NCBI GenBank assembly: GCA_037965595.1
Contig: CP150183.1
Location: 1,550,001 to 1,614,000 of the forward strand
Length of the DNA: 64,000 nt
From: Alkalihalobacillus sp. FSL W8-0930
GTDB lineage: Bacteria > Bacillota > Bacilli > Bacillales > Bacillaceae_D
Direction of reading: 5' to 3'
Shown here: positions 1 through 12,866 of the stretch, piece after piece
Layout: every line of letters begins with the position of its first letter
Position numbering within the stretch: the stretch's first letter is position 1
Program-made: the position numbers and the translations under genes
Notes under the pieces: generated by a model
Seen by the model: the letters and a program-made list of their open reading frames with translations, nothing else
Told to the model about the DNA's origin: nothing
Database searches by the model: none

Positions 1-438
1 TTGATTGGAGACGATACCAATTTCACTAATGTTGATAATACTTGTAGCATTAAAGGGTGCATTCGTTAGTTTAGTGGAGTCCTTGTTTCTAGCAATAAAC
101 TCTACAATATTGCCAGCTGGATCCGTGAAATAAAGAGCATGAGCATCCCAATTCTTAAAATAGACCTCATCACTTTCATCATGCTTATTTAAGGTAACAA
201 GTGACTGGATCCATCGCTTAGCTTCGGGAAATTGATCTCGTGGAATATTCATTGCAAAATGGTAGAATGGCTTGCTTCTTTTAGTAGATGACTGATTAAA
301 CTCTAGGATTGTGTAGCCGATCTTTACTTGAAAGGATGAGGTATTTTCTTTAAGTAATGGGAATTGTAAAGTCTCTGAGTAGAATAATTTTAGCTGGTGC
401 AAGTGGTCTGTTAGTAAAATTAAGTGGGTTATTTTCAT
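1..438 (-). CDS. VOC (glyoxalase/dioxygenase-fold) protein, 3' end cut off
   Basis: The first 146 residues can be read; the C-terminus lies beyond the window. The start ATG is at 436-438 on the minus strand, preceded by an AAGGAG site. The N-terminus (MKITHLILL), the strand-like IGYTILEF and the late block DPAGNIVEFIA are typical of the vicinal-oxygen-chelate fold. Candidate metal ligands are H5, E46, H60 and E113, which is the usual spacing for a metal-binding VOC domain. The family includes glyoxalases, dioxygenases and antibiotic-binding proteins, so the substrate is unknown. It appears to be a single gene with no partner in the window. Confidence 0.8.
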   Translation of the reverse strand, partial: MKITHLILLTDHLHQLKLFYSETLQFPLLKENTSSFQVKIGYTILEFNQSSTKRSKPFYHFAMNIPRDQFPEAKRWIQSLVTLNKHDESDEVYFKNWDAHALYFTDPAGNIVEFIARNKDSTKLTNAPFNATSIINISEIGIVSNQ

Positions 439-530
439 ATGTAAAAACTCCTTATGGTTGATAGCTCTTACTTTATACGTGAAATCGGATACAGCCATCG
501 GTCATCCTAAGGAAAATATCTACAACTTTA

Positions 531-556
531 GTCTTAAAAAAGGAAAGACCTTCCTC
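531..556 (-). terminator. Possible weak minus-strand terminator
   Basis: AGGAA (541-545) can pair with TTCCT (551-555); read on the minus strand the hairpin is followed by a run of five or more T. The stem is short and an alternative pairing (GTCTT with AAGAC) exists. If real, it would end a minus-strand transcript crossing the tRNA-like locus. Confidence 0.3.
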
Positions 557-586
557 TGCATTTGTAGTAAAATGTAAGTCATACAG

Positions 587-781
587 GCCTCTGTAGCTCT
601 AGAAGGGAAGAGCGCCGGAAAACAATGTGCAACCGGGTCGCAAGGTAAGGGTTTCAGAAGCACCGAAAAGCAAATCAGCTGAGGCAGGTGAAATTCCTAG
701 CCGGTGAAAGTCCGTAGGGAAGCGTGTTCCCCCTAGCCTATGCTTACGAAAGGAGTGCGGGTTCGAATCCCGCCAGAGGCA
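587..781 (+). ncRNA. tRNA-like structured RNA with about 120 extra bases between D-arm and T-arm
   Basis: The two ends fold as a tRNA: a perfect 7-bp acceptor stem (587-593 with 774-780), TA at positions 8-9, a 4-bp D stem (596-599 with 610-613) with GG in its loop, and a perfect 5-bp T stem (757-761 with 769-773) closing the canonical loop TTCGAAT. A781 would be the discriminator base and CCA is not encoded. Instead of a normal anticodon arm, 614-756 holds a longer structured insert: CCGG (615-618) can pair with CCGG (633-636), GGCAGG (683-688) with CCTAGCC (696-702), and TAGGGAA (715-721) with TTCCCCCTA (727-735). The motif GGTGAAANTCC occurs twice (687-697, 703-713). I could not match the insert to group I or group II intron cores. 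It may be an interrupted tRNA gene, a tRNA remnant or a new structured RNA. Confidence 0.55.
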
Positions 782-900
782 TCGATATCTGTTAAGCAAA
801 ACTTTTAAAGCGCCTTTATATGTAATGATCTTTTTATTTTGAAAAACTCAAATGTATTAAATTAATGTTTTTTTCTTGTTTATATATCTGAAAAATGGAA

Positions 901-925
901 TAAAAAAAGAGCCATTAAAGGCTCT
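901..925 (-). terminator. Rho-independent terminator of the lipoprotein gene
   Basis: A 6-bp stem, AGAGCC (908-913) with GGCTCT (920-925), followed on the minus strand by seven T (902-908 on the plus strand are A). It lies directly after the lipoprotein stop codon. Confidence 0.85.
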
Positions 926-932
926 AATAAAA

Positions 933-1496
933 TTAAAATTCAACTGCTACTTCAACATCTTCTACAGTTTCATATGTTTCCATATCAAATACATGTAGCA
1001 ACATTTCGAAATCACTTTCAAATAATGGTAAGTCTCCACCTTCGTAATCTTGGATAGATAATTCTGCATCTGCAATTTTGCCACCAGATACGTCTTGGCT
1101 CATGGTTAACAGCGTTTCATCTACCATTTTTCCATCTACTGAAACCTCTCGAGCTTGGAAAGTAAGCGTGGAATCAGTTTTATTCTCAACTTCAAAGTTT
1201 ACTGTAATAGTTTCTTCGTCCCAAAAATCATCATATGCCTTTTCAATACTAACTAAAGTAGCTTTGAAATTATCGTTATCAGTTACAGCTTCATTTAAAT
1301 CTTTAACAAAACCATCTTCATTACCGTCTTCAGTTGATTCTTCATCAGTAGAAGAATCAATTGAAGTCTCAGTGGCTTCTGTTGTTTCTGTATTTTCAGT
1401 ATCGTTAGTTGAATTTGAATTTGTATTTTCTGTCTCTCCACAAGCAGCTAATCCAAGCACGCTTATAATTCCAGCAGATAAAAATAATTTTTTCAT
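933..1496 (-). CDS. Secreted lipoprotein, possibly with a DUF4352-like domain
   Basis: 187 residues. A lipoprotein signal peptide is clear: positive MKK, a hydrophobic stretch and the lipobox LAAC with the lipidated cysteine at C19. Residues 21-66 are a low-complexity acidic Thr/Ser/Glu/Asn linker. The C-terminal part (about 67-187) alternates polar and hydrophobic residues and contains ITVNFEVENKTDSTL, resembling the immunoglobulin-like DUF4352 domain common in Bacillus lipoproteins. It would sit on the outer face of the membrane. Function is unknown. It is a single gene with its own terminator; the very acidic linker would suit a halotolerant or alkaliphilic host (inference). Confidence 0.8.
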   Translation of the reverse strand: MKKLFLSAGIISVLGLAACGETENTNSNSTNDTENTETTEATETSIDSSTDEESTEDGNEDGFVKDLNEAVTDNDNFKATLVSIEKAYDDFWDEETITVNFEVENKTDSTLTFQAREVSVDGKMVDETLLTMSQDVSGGKIADAELSIQDYEGGDLPLFESDFEMLLHVFDMETYETVEDVEVAVEF

Positions 1497-1660
1497 AATA
1501 GTACCCCTTTTATTTATGTATTAATTACAGTAGTACATTATAACTAGGATAATACTTTAGTCATAGTCATTCGACAAAACTAGACAAAAAATATTTAGAA
1601 ATTCAAAATTAATCTGAATGGGGAGAAAGTAAATAAGAAGCCACTTCTATAGTAAGCTTA

Positions 1661-2176
1661 TTAAACTCTCACCACAAAAGTTCTCGTCAGGAGATCATAA
1701 ATCGATTGCTTCTTCTTTGTGAATAGAGCGGTACCAATATAAAGAAACATTAGTGCATAGATCAGAATTCCCATTAGGGTATAAGGTACTGGTACTAAAC
1801 CCTCCTCAAGATATACAAGTCGATACACAAGATAATGCGAAAGCTCCCATGGTAGGAACTTTAAGATTGTACGCATGGTTAGTCTTAAAACAGAGACGGA
1901 TTTTCCGTGTTGATCCACCACACGAATGTTTGCTTTCTTTTTTCCAAATGATTGTCCAAAGAGGGTTGAATCACTTAGAATAAAGTAAAGTGAGATTGGT
2001 AGAGTCACCATTAGAAAACCAGTTACTTGCGCAACCACTAAAGAGCCTGCAAAAAAGGTTTGTAGCGAAGGGAAAACAAGTAGATTAACGAAAGCAAGTA
2101 GGGCGAGGTAGCAAATGATCAGAATATAATCGTACATAAATGCTTTAAGCCGAATGAGAAAAGAAGCATAGGTCAC
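1661..2176 (-). CDS. RDD family membrane protein
   Basis: 171 residues with about three to four hydrophobic segments. The N-terminus carries the family signature R9-x2-A12-x3-D16 just before the first membrane span, and a conserved-looking loop with GQSFGKKKANIRVVD around residues 75-90 matches the usual RDD 'G-x2-G-K' region. RDD proteins are poorly characterised; some relatives have been linked to Na+ transport. It stands alone, divergent from the DMT exporter. No clear partner or regulatory site was seen. Confidence 0.75.
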   Translation of the reverse strand: MTYASFLIRLKAFMYDYILIICYLALLAFVNLLVFPSLQTFFAGSLVVAQVTGFLMVTLPISLYFILSDSTLFGQSFGKKKANIRVVDQHGKSVSVLRLTMRTILKFLPWELSHYLVYRLVYLEEGLVPVPYTLMGILIYALMFLYIGTALFTKKKQSIYDLLTRTFVVRV

Positions 2177-2280
2177 TCACACCACCACCATTCTATTTTC
2201 TAATTTTATCAATTAAGATTATTTGTTTATCATACCAAATGAATCCCCTAATGAATCTACTTAAAAATGCAGGAGGAACT

Positions 2281-3183
2281 ATGTCTACACTGAAAGCTTA
2301 TCTCTATACGATTTTGGGAGCTTCCTGCTGGGGGCTGATCGGACTATTTGTCGATCCGCTATACCAAGAAGGATTTACTCCTTGGGAAGTGGTAGCAATA
2401 CGTGGAATCTTCACGTTTGTCATTCTGTTTCTTTTTATGAGCATATGGTTTAGAAATCAGTTAAGAACAAGAGCACGGGACCATTTAATCTTCGCTGCTT
2501 CAGGTATTTGCAGCATCGCGTTTTTTAATTACTTTTATTTTGAGGTCTTTGCACAATCAAATCTGTCACTCGCTGTAACGCTTTTATATACAGGACCTAT
2601 GTTTGTAGCACTGCTATCAAGAGTTTTCTTTAAAGAGATGCTAACGCCTAACAAGGTGCTAGCTCTCATATTGTCATTAATCGGATGTGCGTTTGTTGTG
2701 CAGCTGCTGCCATTTGGTACATCAAGTATTCCTGGATCAGTCATTATCATGGGAGTCCTGTCAGGTTTTTTCTATGCGCTGTATAGTATTTTTACCAAAC
2801 CGATCACGAGTAGGTACTCACCCTTAACGATTACGACGTACACTTTTTTATATACGAGTGTATTTATGCTCGTGGCCAGTCCCATTACTGAAAAGGCATC
2901 TTTGTTCACATCATCGTCTGTTTTAGTACCGGCTTTGTTATTGGCACTTGTTTCAACAGTAGGAGGCTATGTTTTCTATACTACAGGTTTAAAACATTTA
3001 GAGGCGAGTAAGGCCTCGATTCTTGCAACGATTGAACCCGTTGTTGCAGTGATATCCAGTGTATTGTTTTTAAATGATGCCTTAAATATCTGGCAGCTTA
3101 TAGGTATTCTTGCTGTACTGTATTCTGCTGTGCTTGTATCAAAGCGAGGACGTATTAAAAGGCGAACAAGACATGTTGCCTAG
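2281..3183 (+). CDS. EamA/DMT superfamily transporter
   Basis: 300 residues with ten predicted membrane helices arranged as two EamA repeats (about 5-135 and 150-285). An in-frame ATG exists 42 bases earlier, but AGGAGG at 2271-2276 lies just before ATG 2281, so MSTLKAYLYT is taken as the start. The repeat ends with the typical GLKHLEASKASILATIEPVVAVI segment, where the family has a conserved Glu-Pro. Such proteins export metabolites or amino acids across the plasma membrane; the substrate cannot be told from sequence. The next gene follows after 20 bases and may be co-transcribed. Confidence 0.85.
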   Translation: MSTLKAYLYTILGASCWGLIGLFVDPLYQEGFTPWEVVAIRGIFTFVILFLFMSIWFRNQLRTRARDHLIFAASGICSIAFFNYFYFEVFAQSNLSLAVTLLYTGPMFVALLSRVFFKEMLTPNKVLALILSLIGCAFVVQLLPFGTSSIPGSVIIMGVLSGFFYALYSIFTKPITSRYSPLTITTYTFLYTSVFMLVASPITEKASLFTSSSVLVPALLLALVSTVGGYVFYTTGLKHLEASKASILATIEPVVAVISSVLFLNDALNIWQLIGILAVLYSAVLVSKRGRIKRRTRHVA

Positions 3184-5165: not shown

Positions 5166-7508
5166 ATGTCACAGGAGAAAAGAAGACAACGTCTCGTTTG
5201 GATAGGAAATGGTATGGCCGGGATGCGCTCAGTAGAAGATGTTCTTGCTCTTGAGCCTAATTCCTTTGAACTTACGATTATCGGGAGTGAGCCAGTTAGA
5301 AGTTATAACCGGATATTACTCTCGTCTGCTCTTCAAGGGGAGGCTACGGTCGACTCCATTTACTCACAGACCGAAACATGGTTTTCAGATCATCAGGTTA
5401 CATTGTTTCTAGGTGAATCGGTTGAATGGATTGATTCAGATGAAAAAGTCATTCTAACGGATCATCATCGCACGATTCCTTATGATAAGTTAATTATCGC
5501 TACGGGCTCCAGTCCATTTGTGCTACCAATACCTGGTCATGATAAAGAAGGTGTGTATACATTTCGGACGATGGATGATTGTCACCAGTTACTTAAGGCA
5601 TCAACTATGTTTAGGCGAGCAACGGTGATTGGCGGTGGTCTTCTTGGCCTTGAGGCTGCAAAAGGGTTTCTTCGTATGGGCATGAGCGTAGATGTTGTTC
5701 ATCGGGCCAGTTCTTTAATGGAGCGTCAACTCGATGAGACAGCTGCAGGTCTGCTTCAGCAAGAACTTGAAGCCCAAGGAATGCGATTTCATCTTAATAA
5801 GGAAACGACAAGTATAACTGGTCGTGATCGCGTGGAAAGAGTGAACTTCTCTGATGGTGGCTTCATTGATACAGACATTGTAGTCATGTCGGCTGGTGTT
5901 AGACCAAACATCGCTCTTGCAGAAAAAAATGGGATCAAAACGAATCGTGGCATTGTTGTTGATGATCGGATGTGTACATCGACACCAGACATATACGCAG
6001 TTGGCGAATGTGTGGAACATCGAGAATTGATTTATGGCATGGTTAAACCTCTCTACGAACAAAGTAAAGTACTTGCGCAAGAGCTATGCGGGTTAGATGG
6101 TGCGCTTTTTAGGGGAACGATTCTCTCTACTCAGTTGAAGATTCCTGGTGTGGATCTTTTCTCAGTTGGTGAGGTTACATCTAGTGATACAACAAACTCG
6201 ATCATGTATATGGATGAAGCCAACAACCATTATAAACGTTTATTTTTTAAGGGAGACTGCCTGTCAGGAGCCATTCTCTATGGACAGACACACGGTAGTA
6301 CAGGACTTGTCGATTTGGTATCAAAACAAACAGAATTGTCTGCTACTGAAAAGAATCAGCTTTTATATACAGAAGGTGACCGTGACTCCCTTATTGCCGA
6401 TATGTCTTCAAGTGAACTCGTTTGTCAATGCAATGCAGTTTCAAAAAAAGAAATTATCCAAGCGGTACAAAAAGAAGGCTTAGCGACAGTTGATGAGGTC
6501 AAATCCTGTACAAAAGCAGCAAGCTCATGTGGTGGATGTAAACCACTTGTTGGTACCCTTTTAACCTACATTCAAAGTGATCAGTTTGAAGAGATCGAGG
6601 AGAGTGTCCCTGTGTTATGTGGCTGCACAACATATACGGAATCCGAGATTGTAGAAGGAATGTATAAACACCAACTCACTTCTAAAGAAGCGATTCACAC
6701 TTTTTATGCTTGGAGAAAAGCTGACGGCTGTGATACATGTGATGAAACACTCGCTTATCATTTAAGCATGTTGGAACCACTATACATTCCATCTCTTCTA
6801 CAAGAAAATGTAGTGAAGCAAGCAGATGGACATTATGCGGTTTCCCTTCCTTTTAACCAAGGAACAAACGATGCAAAAAGGTTTCAGCAGGTCGCACAAT
6901 TTCTTGAATTATACCCTCAAGTTCAAGCAAATCTAACTGGTTATTCTGAGTTACAGCTGACAGGTATAAAGAAGAGCGAGCTCCAAAACGTATGGAAAAT
7001 CTTTTCGATTCCGAGTAAGGCTCCTTTAGAAAATCGATTGCTCATGGCTCACTCACATAATCAGTGCACATGTGATCAATCGGCTGCACGTACCATTTCA
7101 AAGCAGGTGAGTGACTCGTTTGCATGGATTCCAATGCCACGCGTAACAACATTGGCTGTGCAAAGCTGTTCACATGGAGTATTGCATGGTGATATTCAAA
7201 TTTCAAAAACGGTTGTTGGCTGGGAGATTCAAGTTGGTGAAGGGGGAGAGAAGCAATTATTTTACGTTCTACAAACAGAAGCGGAAGTGATTGAATGTCT
7301 ACCAGTCTTTATCCAGTATTATCGGCAAACCGCTTATTATGAGGAGTCAATTGGGAGCTGGATAAACAGAATAGGGCTGATTCATGTAAGGGAAATGCTT
7401 TATGACACAGGCTTTGCCATAGATCGAATGGATGACCTTAACAAAACACGAATGTATGTGAAAAATCATTTAAACCTCGATATGAAGGATATGAAGGAAT
7501 TGGTTTAA
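5166..7508 (+). CDS. nasB: Assimilatory nitrate reductase electron-transfer subunit
   Basis: 780 residues, close to B. subtilis NasB (about 770). Residues 8-300 form an FAD/NAD(P)H disulfide-oxidoreductase domain with a nucleotide-binding loop (IGNGMAGMRS), ATGSSPFVLPIPG, and a second NAD loop GGGLLGLEAAKGF. Two BFD-like [2Fe-2S] segments follow: C-x-C near 420 with SSCGGC near 455-460, and CGC near 485 with DGCDTC near 525. The C-terminal part contains one ferredoxin-like sulfite/nitrite-reductase half domain (ELQLTGIKKSEL) but lacks the four-cysteine siroheme/4Fe-4S motif, which separates it from nitrite reductase NasD. It passes electrons from NAD(P)H to NasC. First gene of a nasBCA unit, with a TnrA box upstream. 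Confidence 0.85.
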   Translation: MSQEKRRQRLVWIGNGMAGMRSVEDVLALEPNSFELTIIGSEPVRSYNRILLSSALQGEATVDSIYSQTETWFSDHQVTLFLGESVEWIDSDEKVILTDHHRTIPYDKLIIATGSSPFVLPIPGHDKEGVYTFRTMDDCHQLLKASTMFRRATVIGGGLLGLEAAKGFLRMGMSVDVVHRASSLMERQLDETAAGLLQQELEAQGMRFHLNKETTSITGRDRVERVNFSDGGFIDTDIVVMSAGVRPNIALAEKNGIKTNRGIVVDDRMCTSTPDIYAVGECVEHRELIYGMVKPLYEQSKVLAQELCGLDGALFRGTILSTQLKIPGVDLFSVGEVTSSDTTNSIMYMDEANNHYKRLFFKGDCLSGAILYGQTHGSTGLVDLVSKQTELSATEKNQLLYTEGDRDSLIADMSSSELVCQCNAVSKKEIIQAVQKEGLATVDEVKSCTKAASSCGGCKPLVGTLLTYIQSDQFEEIEESVPVLCGCTTYTESEIVEGMYKHQLTSKEAIHTFYAWRKADGCDTCDETLAYHLSMLEPLYIPSLLQENVVKQADGHYAVSLPFNQGTNDAKRFQQVAQFLELYPQVQANLTGYSELQLTGIKKSELQNVWKIFSIPSKAPLENRLLMAHSHNQCTCDQSAARTISKQVSDSFAWIPMPRVTTLAVQSCSHGVLHGDIQISKTVVGWEIQVGEGGEKQLFYVLQTEAEVIECLPVFIQYYRQTAYYEESIGSWINRIGLIHVREMLYDTGFAIDRMDDLNKTRMYVKNHLNLDMKDMKELV

Positions 7509-11862: not shown

Positions 11863-12447
11863 ATGAAGGTCATTTTTTTATTCGGCCCACAAGCTGTTGG
11901 TAAGATGACAATTGGTGAAATTCTATCAAAGGAACTGGATTTACCATTATTATTCAATCACATGACTTTAGATGCCATAGCTCCTTTTTTAGGATGGACG
12001 AAAAAAACATTTGAACTGTCCAATCAATTACGGAAAGATATCTTTCGTGAAATGGTTGCTCAGCAAGATAACAAGGGATTAATCTTCACATTTGTATGGG
12101 CGCTCGATCATAAGGAAGATTCTAAAGAAGTAGAGCGATTCAAACGTATTTTTACGGATTCTGGAGTTGACGTTTTGTTTGTAGAGCTTGAAACGACACT
12201 TGAGGAACGCTTACGACGAAACCAATCAGAGAACCGTCTGGCTAAAAAGCCTTCAAAAAGAGATCTGAAGCAAAGTGAAGAGGAGCTTTTAACAAGTAAT
12301 CAAAAGCACCGGCTGAACTCATTACCGGGCGAAATAAAAGAACCCTATTATTTTCGCTTGGATGTGACAAATATTAGTGCGGAAGAGGCTGCTAGAAAGA
12401 TCATTTCGGAGAATCAACTGTATTTAAAAACAGGGTGTTCCGAATGA
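11863..12447 (+). CDS. P-loop kinase-like protein
   Basis: 194 residues from ATG 11863, chosen because GAGGAG lies 6 bases upstream; a longer reading from 11818 has no ribosome site. The Walker A loop is G8-PQAV-G13-K14-M-T16. The fold and length resemble small nucleoside, shikimate or gluconate kinases: FTFVWALDHKED after strand 3, and a lid-like stretch with ERLRRNQSENRLAKKP. Phosphate acceptor unknown. Its stop overlaps the next start (ATGA), so it leads a tightly packed run of small-molecule enzymes to 14951. Confidence 0.75.
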   Translation: MKVIFLFGPQAVGKMTIGEILSKELDLPLLFNHMTLDAIAPFLGWTKKTFELSNQLRKDIFREMVAQQDNKGLIFTFVWALDHKEDSKEVERFKRIFTDSGVDVLFVELETTLEERLRRNQSENRLAKKPSKRDLKQSEEELLTSNQKHRLNSLPGEIKEPYYFRLDVTNISAEEAARKIISENQLYLKTGCSE

Positions 12448-12866
12448 ACTGTTTAGGCTGTCGATTAGCAAATAAAAAAGAACCTATTCACTTAATTTAT
12501 GAGAACGATTTAATTAGTTGTTTCTTAGATCATGACCCATTCAACGCAGGTCACACATTAATTCTTCCAAAAAATCATGTGGAAGATCTAGACGAACTAG
12601 ATGAAGCGACTGCTCAATCGATTTTAAAAGCGTCTATGAACATTTCTAAGATTCTAAAATTGTTATACAAACCTGATGGAATAACTATTTGTCAAAATGG
12701 AGGCGTGTTTAGTGAATTAACACATTTTCATTTGCATGTTGTTCCGCGCTTTATAGATCAATCGTTTGCTACGTTTTATTCTGATGAGCCGTTTGATAAT
12801 GAGCATCTTAAGCAGCAATTTGTAACGATTAAAAACCAATTAAAGAAAGCATTAAGTGAGATGTAA
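12444..12866 (+). CDS. HIT family hydrolase/transferase
   Basis: 140 residues from ATG 12444, which overlaps the preceding stop by 4 bases (GTG 12435 is in frame but less well placed). The histidine triad H94-F-H96-L-H98-VVP is intact. The N-terminus MNCLGC, the segment NAGHTLILPKNH and the FNAGH helix match HIT proteins such as Hit/HinT that cleave nucleotide phosphoramidates or dinucleoside polyphosphates. Substrate unknown. Member of the run 11863-14951. Confidence 0.85.
   Translation: MNCLGCRLANKKEPIHLIYENDLISCFLDHDPFNAGHTLILPKNHVEDLDELDEATAQSILKASMNISKILKLLYKPDGITICQNGGVFSELTHFHLHVVPRFIDQSFATFYSDEPFDNEHLKQQFVTIKNQLKKALSEM

Follow-up and report, generated by a model that had tools for sequence, protein, structure and literature searches.

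The closest analogue that we found for the RNA described here is tRNA-Other, a pseudo-tRNA of B. cereus whose deletion alters antibiotic resistance and cell-wall traits (PMC3399842); the two are likened by description. As presented in the parts of that report available to us, tRNA-Other differs in that it has a Trp anticodon, forms part of a larger transcript and is described without a conserved insert or core (PMC3399842). tmRNA (RF00023) resembles our RNA in having tRNA-like ends and a large domain in place of the normal middle, but the RNA studied here keeps a D arm and matches the tmRNA model over the T arm alone. This match, at 15.8 bits against a cut-off of 47, was the tRNA-type match listed for window positions 1-3000. 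Phage tRNA-Arg(ACG) shares with the RNA family an A after the GG of the D loop (A20), the 3' half ACGRA of the loop (CTACGRA in the tRNA) and often the same tRNA arrays; most phage members of the family have instead the loop AAAACGRA, which lacks U33, and the family has a giant variable arm with a conserved core.

GOLLD and ROOL RNAs are associated with tRNA arrays. Both are large, ornate bacterial RNAs (PMC12286853), and no Rfam family of their type matched the window up to E 10. Theta ribozymes, in turn, are structured RNAs of HDV-like fold found beside, and often downstream of, phage tRNA genes (PMC10879173); they adjoin tRNAs, whereas the domain of the present family sits inside a tRNA-like body. 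A transcriptome of Listeria plasmids lists, in its accessible part, other non-coding RNAs and not this one (PMC9484302). In the literature searched, which left aside preprints and most subscription papers, we found no description of the RNA, a result that is not proof of absence.

A tRNA-like RNA with a giant variable arm

The window, a stretch of 64,000 nucleotides from contig CP150183.1 of Alkalihalobacillus sp. FSL W8-0930, holds a complete tRNA-like RNA of 195 nt at positions 587-781 of the plus strand, on which all its parts given below lie. Its acceptor, D and T arms are all present; about 120 nt precede the T arm, and a hairpin fills the position of the anticodon arm. The 5' strand of the acceptor stem (GCCTCTG; 587-593) forms seven base pairs with CAGAGGC (774-780), which is followed by the discriminator base A (781). 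The D arm (596-613) has a stem of four base pairs (GCTC/GAGC) and a loop that keeps the GG and, by eye, an A20-like A after the last GG, while the T arm (757-773) consists of the five-pair stem GCGGG/CCCGC and the loop TTCGAAT. These perfect stems, the T at position 14 and the lack of an encoded 3' CCA had been noted in the preliminary description, and all can be read directly in the sequence. The mature RNA is expected to comprise positions 587-781 and an added CCA.

The hairpin at the anticodon-arm position, P2 (615-636), has the stem CCGG/CCGG and a loop that starts with AAAAC. It is followed by the 5' strand of a long helix, P3 (640-651), whose partner lies at about 731-743; this helix covaries among Bacilli, and the P3 of phages was confirmed separately. 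Two conserved blocks form a core, C1 (GGTTTCAGAAGCACCGAAAAGC; 650-671) and C2 (GTAGGGAAGCGTGTT; 714-728), and between them stands a peripheral hairpin (GGCAGG/CCTAGCC; 684-702), which holds the first of two copies of GGTGAAANTCC. A small hairpin with a GNRA-type loop (744-755), seen by eye in the alignment, reads CGAAAG in the window RNA and has the loops GCAA, GAGA, GTGA and, in one case, CAAA in its relatives (by eye). The doubled GGTGAAANTCC motif is present in the window as first described, yet one copy is dispensable: L023 and L043, which have lost the peripheral hairpin or have it fused, contain a single copy. Likewise, both copies of CCTAGCC stand in the window, but the first occurs in only seven of the 20 rows of the Bacilli alignment, the others having CCTGCC, CCTGTC and similar sequences or lacking the stretch, and the alternative pairing of CCTAGCC with GGCAGG that had been suggested shows no conservation across these 20 sequences.

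Automated annotation passes over this RNA. ARAGORN called neither a tRNA nor a tmRNA at this place or anywhere else in the window, and none of the families of Rfam 15, riboswitches and ribozymes included, reached its cut-off in window positions 1-3000, the search against all Rfam models that had been proposed as a check. The family has no entry of its own in Rfam 15. The Rfam tRNA cut-off was passed by one of five phage members tested (that of locus L185), while the window RNA fell below it; the YrlA model (RF02553) matched neither the window nor the L185 member. Folding of the single window sequence was no better than chance (z of -1.03; 27 of 200 shuffled sequences equally good), and the case for an RNA therefore rests on conservation. 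The RNA is present in a single copy in its own genome, and it looks like a separate unit, since the nearest long open reading frames, at 1-498 (a VOC-type protein by eye) and 933-1496, lie on the minus strand.

Distribution among Bacilli chromosomes and plasmids

BLAST detected the RNA unit in 17 of 100 genomes, its own included (E<=3.3e-23; next match E 0.003), and in most relatives the homology stops at the ends of the RNA (587 to about 782) with unrelated flanks. An exact sequence pattern recovered 66 named genome stretches, which come from a wide range of genera in the Bacillaceae and related groups. In a plasmid collection, matches were found in 27 records, 16 with a query coverage of 80% or more, from Listeria, Cytobacillus, Priestia, Peribacillus and Bacillus. 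The 20 plasmid records displayed show no gene under the match, in a table that is without RNA genes and so does not bear on whether the RNA was annotated. No neighbouring gene is shared among the annotated plasmid regions except within two related pairs (L041 was without annotation in this comparison), and tRNA genes lie near the RNA in three of 59 mostly Bacilli loci.

The genus of the window is taken to be Alkalicoccobacillus. All five genomes of this genus that were searched contain the RNA at 97-99% identity; in three of them the downstream gene, a transporter by eye, is about 76% identical, and in a fourth the flanks are 87-88% identical against the 97-99% of the RNA. Here, the RNA occupies a shared chromosomal locus.

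We used two covariance models for wider searches, R1, built from the 20 Bacilli sequences, and R2, built from 22 diverse rows. The window RNA scores 239.6 bits to R1 and 147.8 bits to R2, values that are not independent because it is a training sequence of both. Presence is patchy: under strict filters and with the own genome included, ten of 398 Bacilli genomes contain a match above 50 bits to R1, and four of the 398 genomes of a phylum-wide sample contain one above 60 bits to R2. Most matches in these genome searches were short, of the size of a tRNA, and were left out of the member counts. No new member was found in 23 genomes around G235; the search around G100 took in one genome.

Two Listeria plasmids, L038 and L046, are 99.98% identical until position 6197, 2 nt past the 3' end of the RNA, beyond which there is no further long match; this suggests recombination at the RNA. 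In addition, 3' remnants of the RNA occur at L065:2646-2715, L087:2306-2376, L097:2173-2242 and L045:6001-6050, those in L065, L087 and L097 being about 70 nt long and situated about 2 kb upstream of full copies.

Members in phage tRNA arrays

The exact pattern also matched two viral contigs, one of them of prophage type with RecT- and DnaC-like open reading frames (names by eye). Model R1 found divergent members in L123, L124, the related phage contigs L161 and L162 and many further viral contigs. The L123 member stands in an array with tRNA-Glu, tRNA-Ile and tRNA-Trp, and its CCA is encoded. A pattern drawn from C1 picked out 21 viral stretches, all 21 of which are members, while one drawn from C2 picked out 58, of which 25 are members by inspection and by the models and the rest look like chance. 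Seventeen Streptomyces phage records matched at E<=0.01; no feature is annotated under the match in 16 of them, and the remaining one has a hypothetical protein there. In the phages Comrade, Kela, Quantum and Alone3 the RNA lies inside the tRNA array and is not annotated as an RNA.

We scanned 22 viral loci for tRNA genes, leaving out L187, L202 and L215. Each held at least two further tRNA genes (one call in L220 being the end of the RNA itself), and the member of L220 was the only one among those in the scanned loci to be called, in part, by the gene finder. L161 has one further tRNA gene; L162, L113 and L114 have none. Judged by sequence, the family thus has members in phage tRNA arrays, on plasmids, on a prophage-type contig and in the Alkalicoccobacillus chromosome.

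In the viral loci, members outside the training set of R2 score 53-102 bits to this model and other matches reach at most 39.7 bits. R2 separates less cleanly in whole genomes, where two adjoining ordinary tRNAs reach 52.2 bits. Six phylum-wide matches of about 155-190 nt and 46-52 bits were fetched as candidates and rejected, as each consists of two adjoining tRNA-Arg genes.

Candidate transcription signals and predicted processing

A possible -10 box, TAAAAT, lies at 568-573, 13 nt before the RNA; it is tentative and follows a trend of the family. Neither a full promoter nor a plus-strand terminator was found in the window itself. Removal of 17 near-duplicates reduced 75 upstream regions to 58, and in 31 of these a near-perfect -10 box has its end 6-13 nt upstream of the RNA, against a mean of 12.3 and a maximum of 23 in shuffled sequences. 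The next interval (16-23 nt upstream) contained such boxes in 21 of the 58 regions and more distant ones in 7-15, and a -10 box was combined with a -35 box in 12 of the 58 (shuffled mean 2.1, maximum 7). Downstream, 13 of 67 regions have a strict terminator, against a shuffled mean of 0.45. The Bacilli members would be processed from a short transcript of their own and the phage members from the transcript of the tRNA array, in both cases by the enzymes that trim tRNAs at their ends. Members without an encoded CCA would then receive it from the tRNA maturation enzymes.

Covariation and conservation of the structure

Compensatory changes were found in 9 of 48 predicted pairs of the 20-sequence Bacilli alignment, and these sit in the acceptor stem, the second hairpin, the long helix and the GGCAGG/CCTGCC hairpin. 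In the 22-row alignment, 91.7% of the cells are paired, compared with 72.7% in shuffled versions and at most 48.7% in slid ones; the structure was drawn from one of the aligned sequences, which favours it over the slid versions. Two-sided changes amount to 103 cells against 29.6 and affect 19 of 26 pairs. P3 is paired in 65.6% of the cells of this alignment because the Bacilli and the long phage forms fall outside its columns. When the ten short phage forms were aligned, 98.8% of the cells were paired (95% in P3) and 18 of 26 pairs changed on both sides. In the 22-row and short phage alignments, the acceptor stem, P2, P3 and the T stem all covary. The D stem hardly varies and is hence only consistent with the conservation of a tRNA stem. 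RNAalifold, unaided, returned the same five helices together with a nested pairing of the core blocks, pairs that are nearly invariant, so that covariation gives no test of them.

These data bear on what the sequence in the window is. The preliminary description had considered a new regulatory RNA, a tRNA remnant and an interrupted tRNA gene. A new RNA is borne out to the extent that the homologues looked for in other Bacillaceae form a conserved, covarying unit that has no family of its own in Rfam 15. A tRNA remnant is rejected, since the whole 195 nt are conserved and the stems change in compensation; such changes rule out a decaying remnant for the family, true remnants of which exist in L024, L045, L065, L087 and L097.

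Of 27 members, 24 have a completely paired acceptor stem, and 21 different 5' strands occur. C1 and C2, with mean column identities of 0.88 and 0.92, are the most conserved parts compared over the 22 rows, in which 9 of the 22 columns of C1 and 14 of the 18 columns of C2 are invariant. The P2 loop is AAAACGRA in 22 of 27 phage-type members, either AAAACGGA (18 members) or AAAACGAA (four members), and has no U33. An A.G combination frequently takes the place of the fifth P2 pair; seven of 26 members form all five. In the Bacilli, the loop consists of AAAAC and a variable tail, 13-17 nt in all. The P2 loop is conserved along with the core, although the tRNA bodies that carry them differ.

The sequences show a tRNA body with a U33-less loop at the anticodon-arm position and a giant variable arm that contains the two-block C1/C2 core. 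Acceptor, D and T arms with compensating stems, as in a decoding tRNA, are present, but neither the phage-type nor the Bacilli members have the 7-nt anticodon loop with U33. By the rules that hold for tRNAs, a loop that is altered and has no U33 speaks against decoding, and the window RNA probably does not read codons.

Arginine tRNA-like traits and possible function

A20 and C35 are determinants of arginyl-tRNA synthetase. A20 was found by script in 22 of 27 members, with a 23rd, L200, added by eye. All 22 Arg tRNAs of the same loci have it as well, as do 43 of the 226 other tRNA calls (one of which is the RNA end in L220). With 11 of 12 Ala tRNAs among its carriers, the trait is not specific for Arg. 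The assignment of C35 in the phage-type members varies with the register of the loop. When R2 was run against 398 genomes, 25 of the 26 best-ranked loci that are not members were, or overlapped, tRNA-Arg genes, the remaining one being an uncalled tRNA-like sequence; these cross-matches rest largely on A20 and CGGA, and none of 18 cross-matches examined for the Bacilli-only model R1 was a tRNA-Arg. Two further comparisons were not sustained: the nearest tRNAs of the body point to many isotypes rather than to a single-isotype origin, and position 37, which agrees well with that of the tRNA-Arg(ACG) encoded by the same phage in seven loci, disagrees in L191.

That the RNA resides on mobile elements and within tRNA arrays and has tRNA-Arg-like traits suggests a tRNA mimic. 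The explanation that we favour, tentatively and with somewhat less than even confidence, is that the window RNA belongs to a distinct family of non-decoding tRNA-like RNAs carried by mobile elements, which perhaps mimic tRNA-Arg and act in trans. Its tRNA body would descend from tRNA-Arg or imitate it, and the C1/C2 core would be the specific effector or protein-binding part. As a decoy, the RNA might engage proteins that otherwise bind or cleave tRNA-Arg, for example tRNases of defence systems or bacteriocins; alternatively, it might be an arginine-charged RNA used outside translation. In the Bacilli, the anticodon-like loop has drifted, with AAAAC kept and G36 lost, and for this reason core and elbow would there carry the function.

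It is also possible, at a lower degree of belief, that the RNA is a regulatory or catalytic one built on a tRNA scaffold, in which C1/C2 form a ribozyme, an aptamer or a base-pairing module, the tRNA body serves only to stabilise the RNA and to have it processed, with the Arg traits being incidental. The outstanding conservation of C1 and C2, the freely changing acceptor stems, the degenerate anticodon-like loop of the Bacilli and the fact that A20 is usual in Ala tRNAs as well all agree with this explanation. What speaks against it is that the window matches no riboswitch or ribozyme family of Rfam, that the annotated plasmid regions have no neighbour gene in common outside the two related pairs, and that most phage members keep both A20 and CGRA.

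The family is distributed over phages of Streptomyces, large uncultured phages, plasmids and Bacillus-type chromosomes. That such a structured RNA has apparently received no name may be due to gene finders, which recognise it as neither a tRNA nor a member of an established family. Through its position within tRNA arrays and its resemblance to tRNA-Arg, one can ask directly whether tRNA mimics serve phages as a means against the tRNases of the host or in something other than translation. The fullest version of the favoured explanation, namely an undescribed class of RNA of phages and mobile elements of Actinobacteria and Bacillota that mimics tRNA-Arg without decoding, has a catalytic or protein-binding core in its giant variable arm, serves in counter-defence as a decoy or inhibitor of tRNA-cutting systems and was domesticated as a chromosomal gene in some Bacilli, is one that we hold to be rather doubtful as a whole.

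Less likely alternatives: an interrupted tRNA gene or an attachment site

Were the insert a small intron of an unknown type, its removal would yield a working tRNA. The insert does lie between the arm at the anticodon position and the T arm, and an RNA ligase and a polynucleotide kinase are encoded nearby in the Streptomyces phage Comrade. A permutation test with 22 members, from which four near-identical relatives had been removed, gave a weak excess of complementarity between the 5' strand of P2 and the bases immediately upstream of the T stem (2.93 against 2.58 of 5; p 0.008). In L161 and L123, moreover, a fifth P2 pair is possible that would leave a 7-nt loop, AAACGGA (by eye), which is still without U33. 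Against this stand the local pairing and covariation of P2 and the joint conservation of P2 loop and core on unlike tRNA bodies. A full second anticodon strand is found in two of 26 phage-type members, compared with 2.5% in cross-pairings, and excision would produce a loop without U33 or, in the Bacilli, one of 13-17 nt. No intron family of Rfam matched window positions 1-3000 up to E 10, in keeping with the earlier failure to recognise a group I or group II core. With no intron family matched and the second anticodon strand mostly absent, the interrupted tRNA gene that had first been envisaged is improbable.

The RNA could also owe its preservation chiefly to use by mobile elements as a DNA attachment site, a role that tRNA genes can have. 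This would fit the junction 2 nt past the RNA in the Listeria plasmids and the 3' remnants upstream of full copies, but we consider it very improbable in view of the two-sided pair changes in the acceptor, P2, P3 and T helices, which point to selection on the RNA, of the locus shared within Alkalicoccobacillus and of the Listeria plasmids, for which no second copy of the RNA end is listed (one place per record).

Further unusual sequences

Several other unusual sequences were seen. The phage contig L198 contains a second, more divergent member of the family at 2160-2396 of the minus strand, which scores 56.5 bits to R2. Next after the RNA in L161 comes an unusual gene resembling tRNA-Leu (about 12441-12590, minus strand), which by eye has an insert of about 40 nt; it is also present in L162. 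The family member of L123 is adjoined by a 96-nt gene called as tRNA-Ile(tat) (1798-1893, minus strand), whose variable arm is unusually long.

Sub-threshold matches to YrlA (Y RNA-like), separate from the family member, were seen in the phage tRNA arrays of L164, L185 and L210. L185 also has a manA-like RNA between two tRNA-Lys genes of its array (6642-6874, minus strand; 47.8 bits against a cut-off of 55.2). The manA RNA, for which a cyanophage study was consulted (PMC9964418), was tried as a relative of the family on account of short look-alike stretches shared with this sub-threshold match, but it was rejected because its consensus differs. A manA search of eight viral records gave no match, controls included, and missed the sub-threshold match of L185 too, so that it carries little weight. 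Finally, L228 (G791) carries at 1501-1613 a tRNA-like sequence of 113 nt that ARAGORN does not call and that is without C1 and C2; it perhaps represents a further class.
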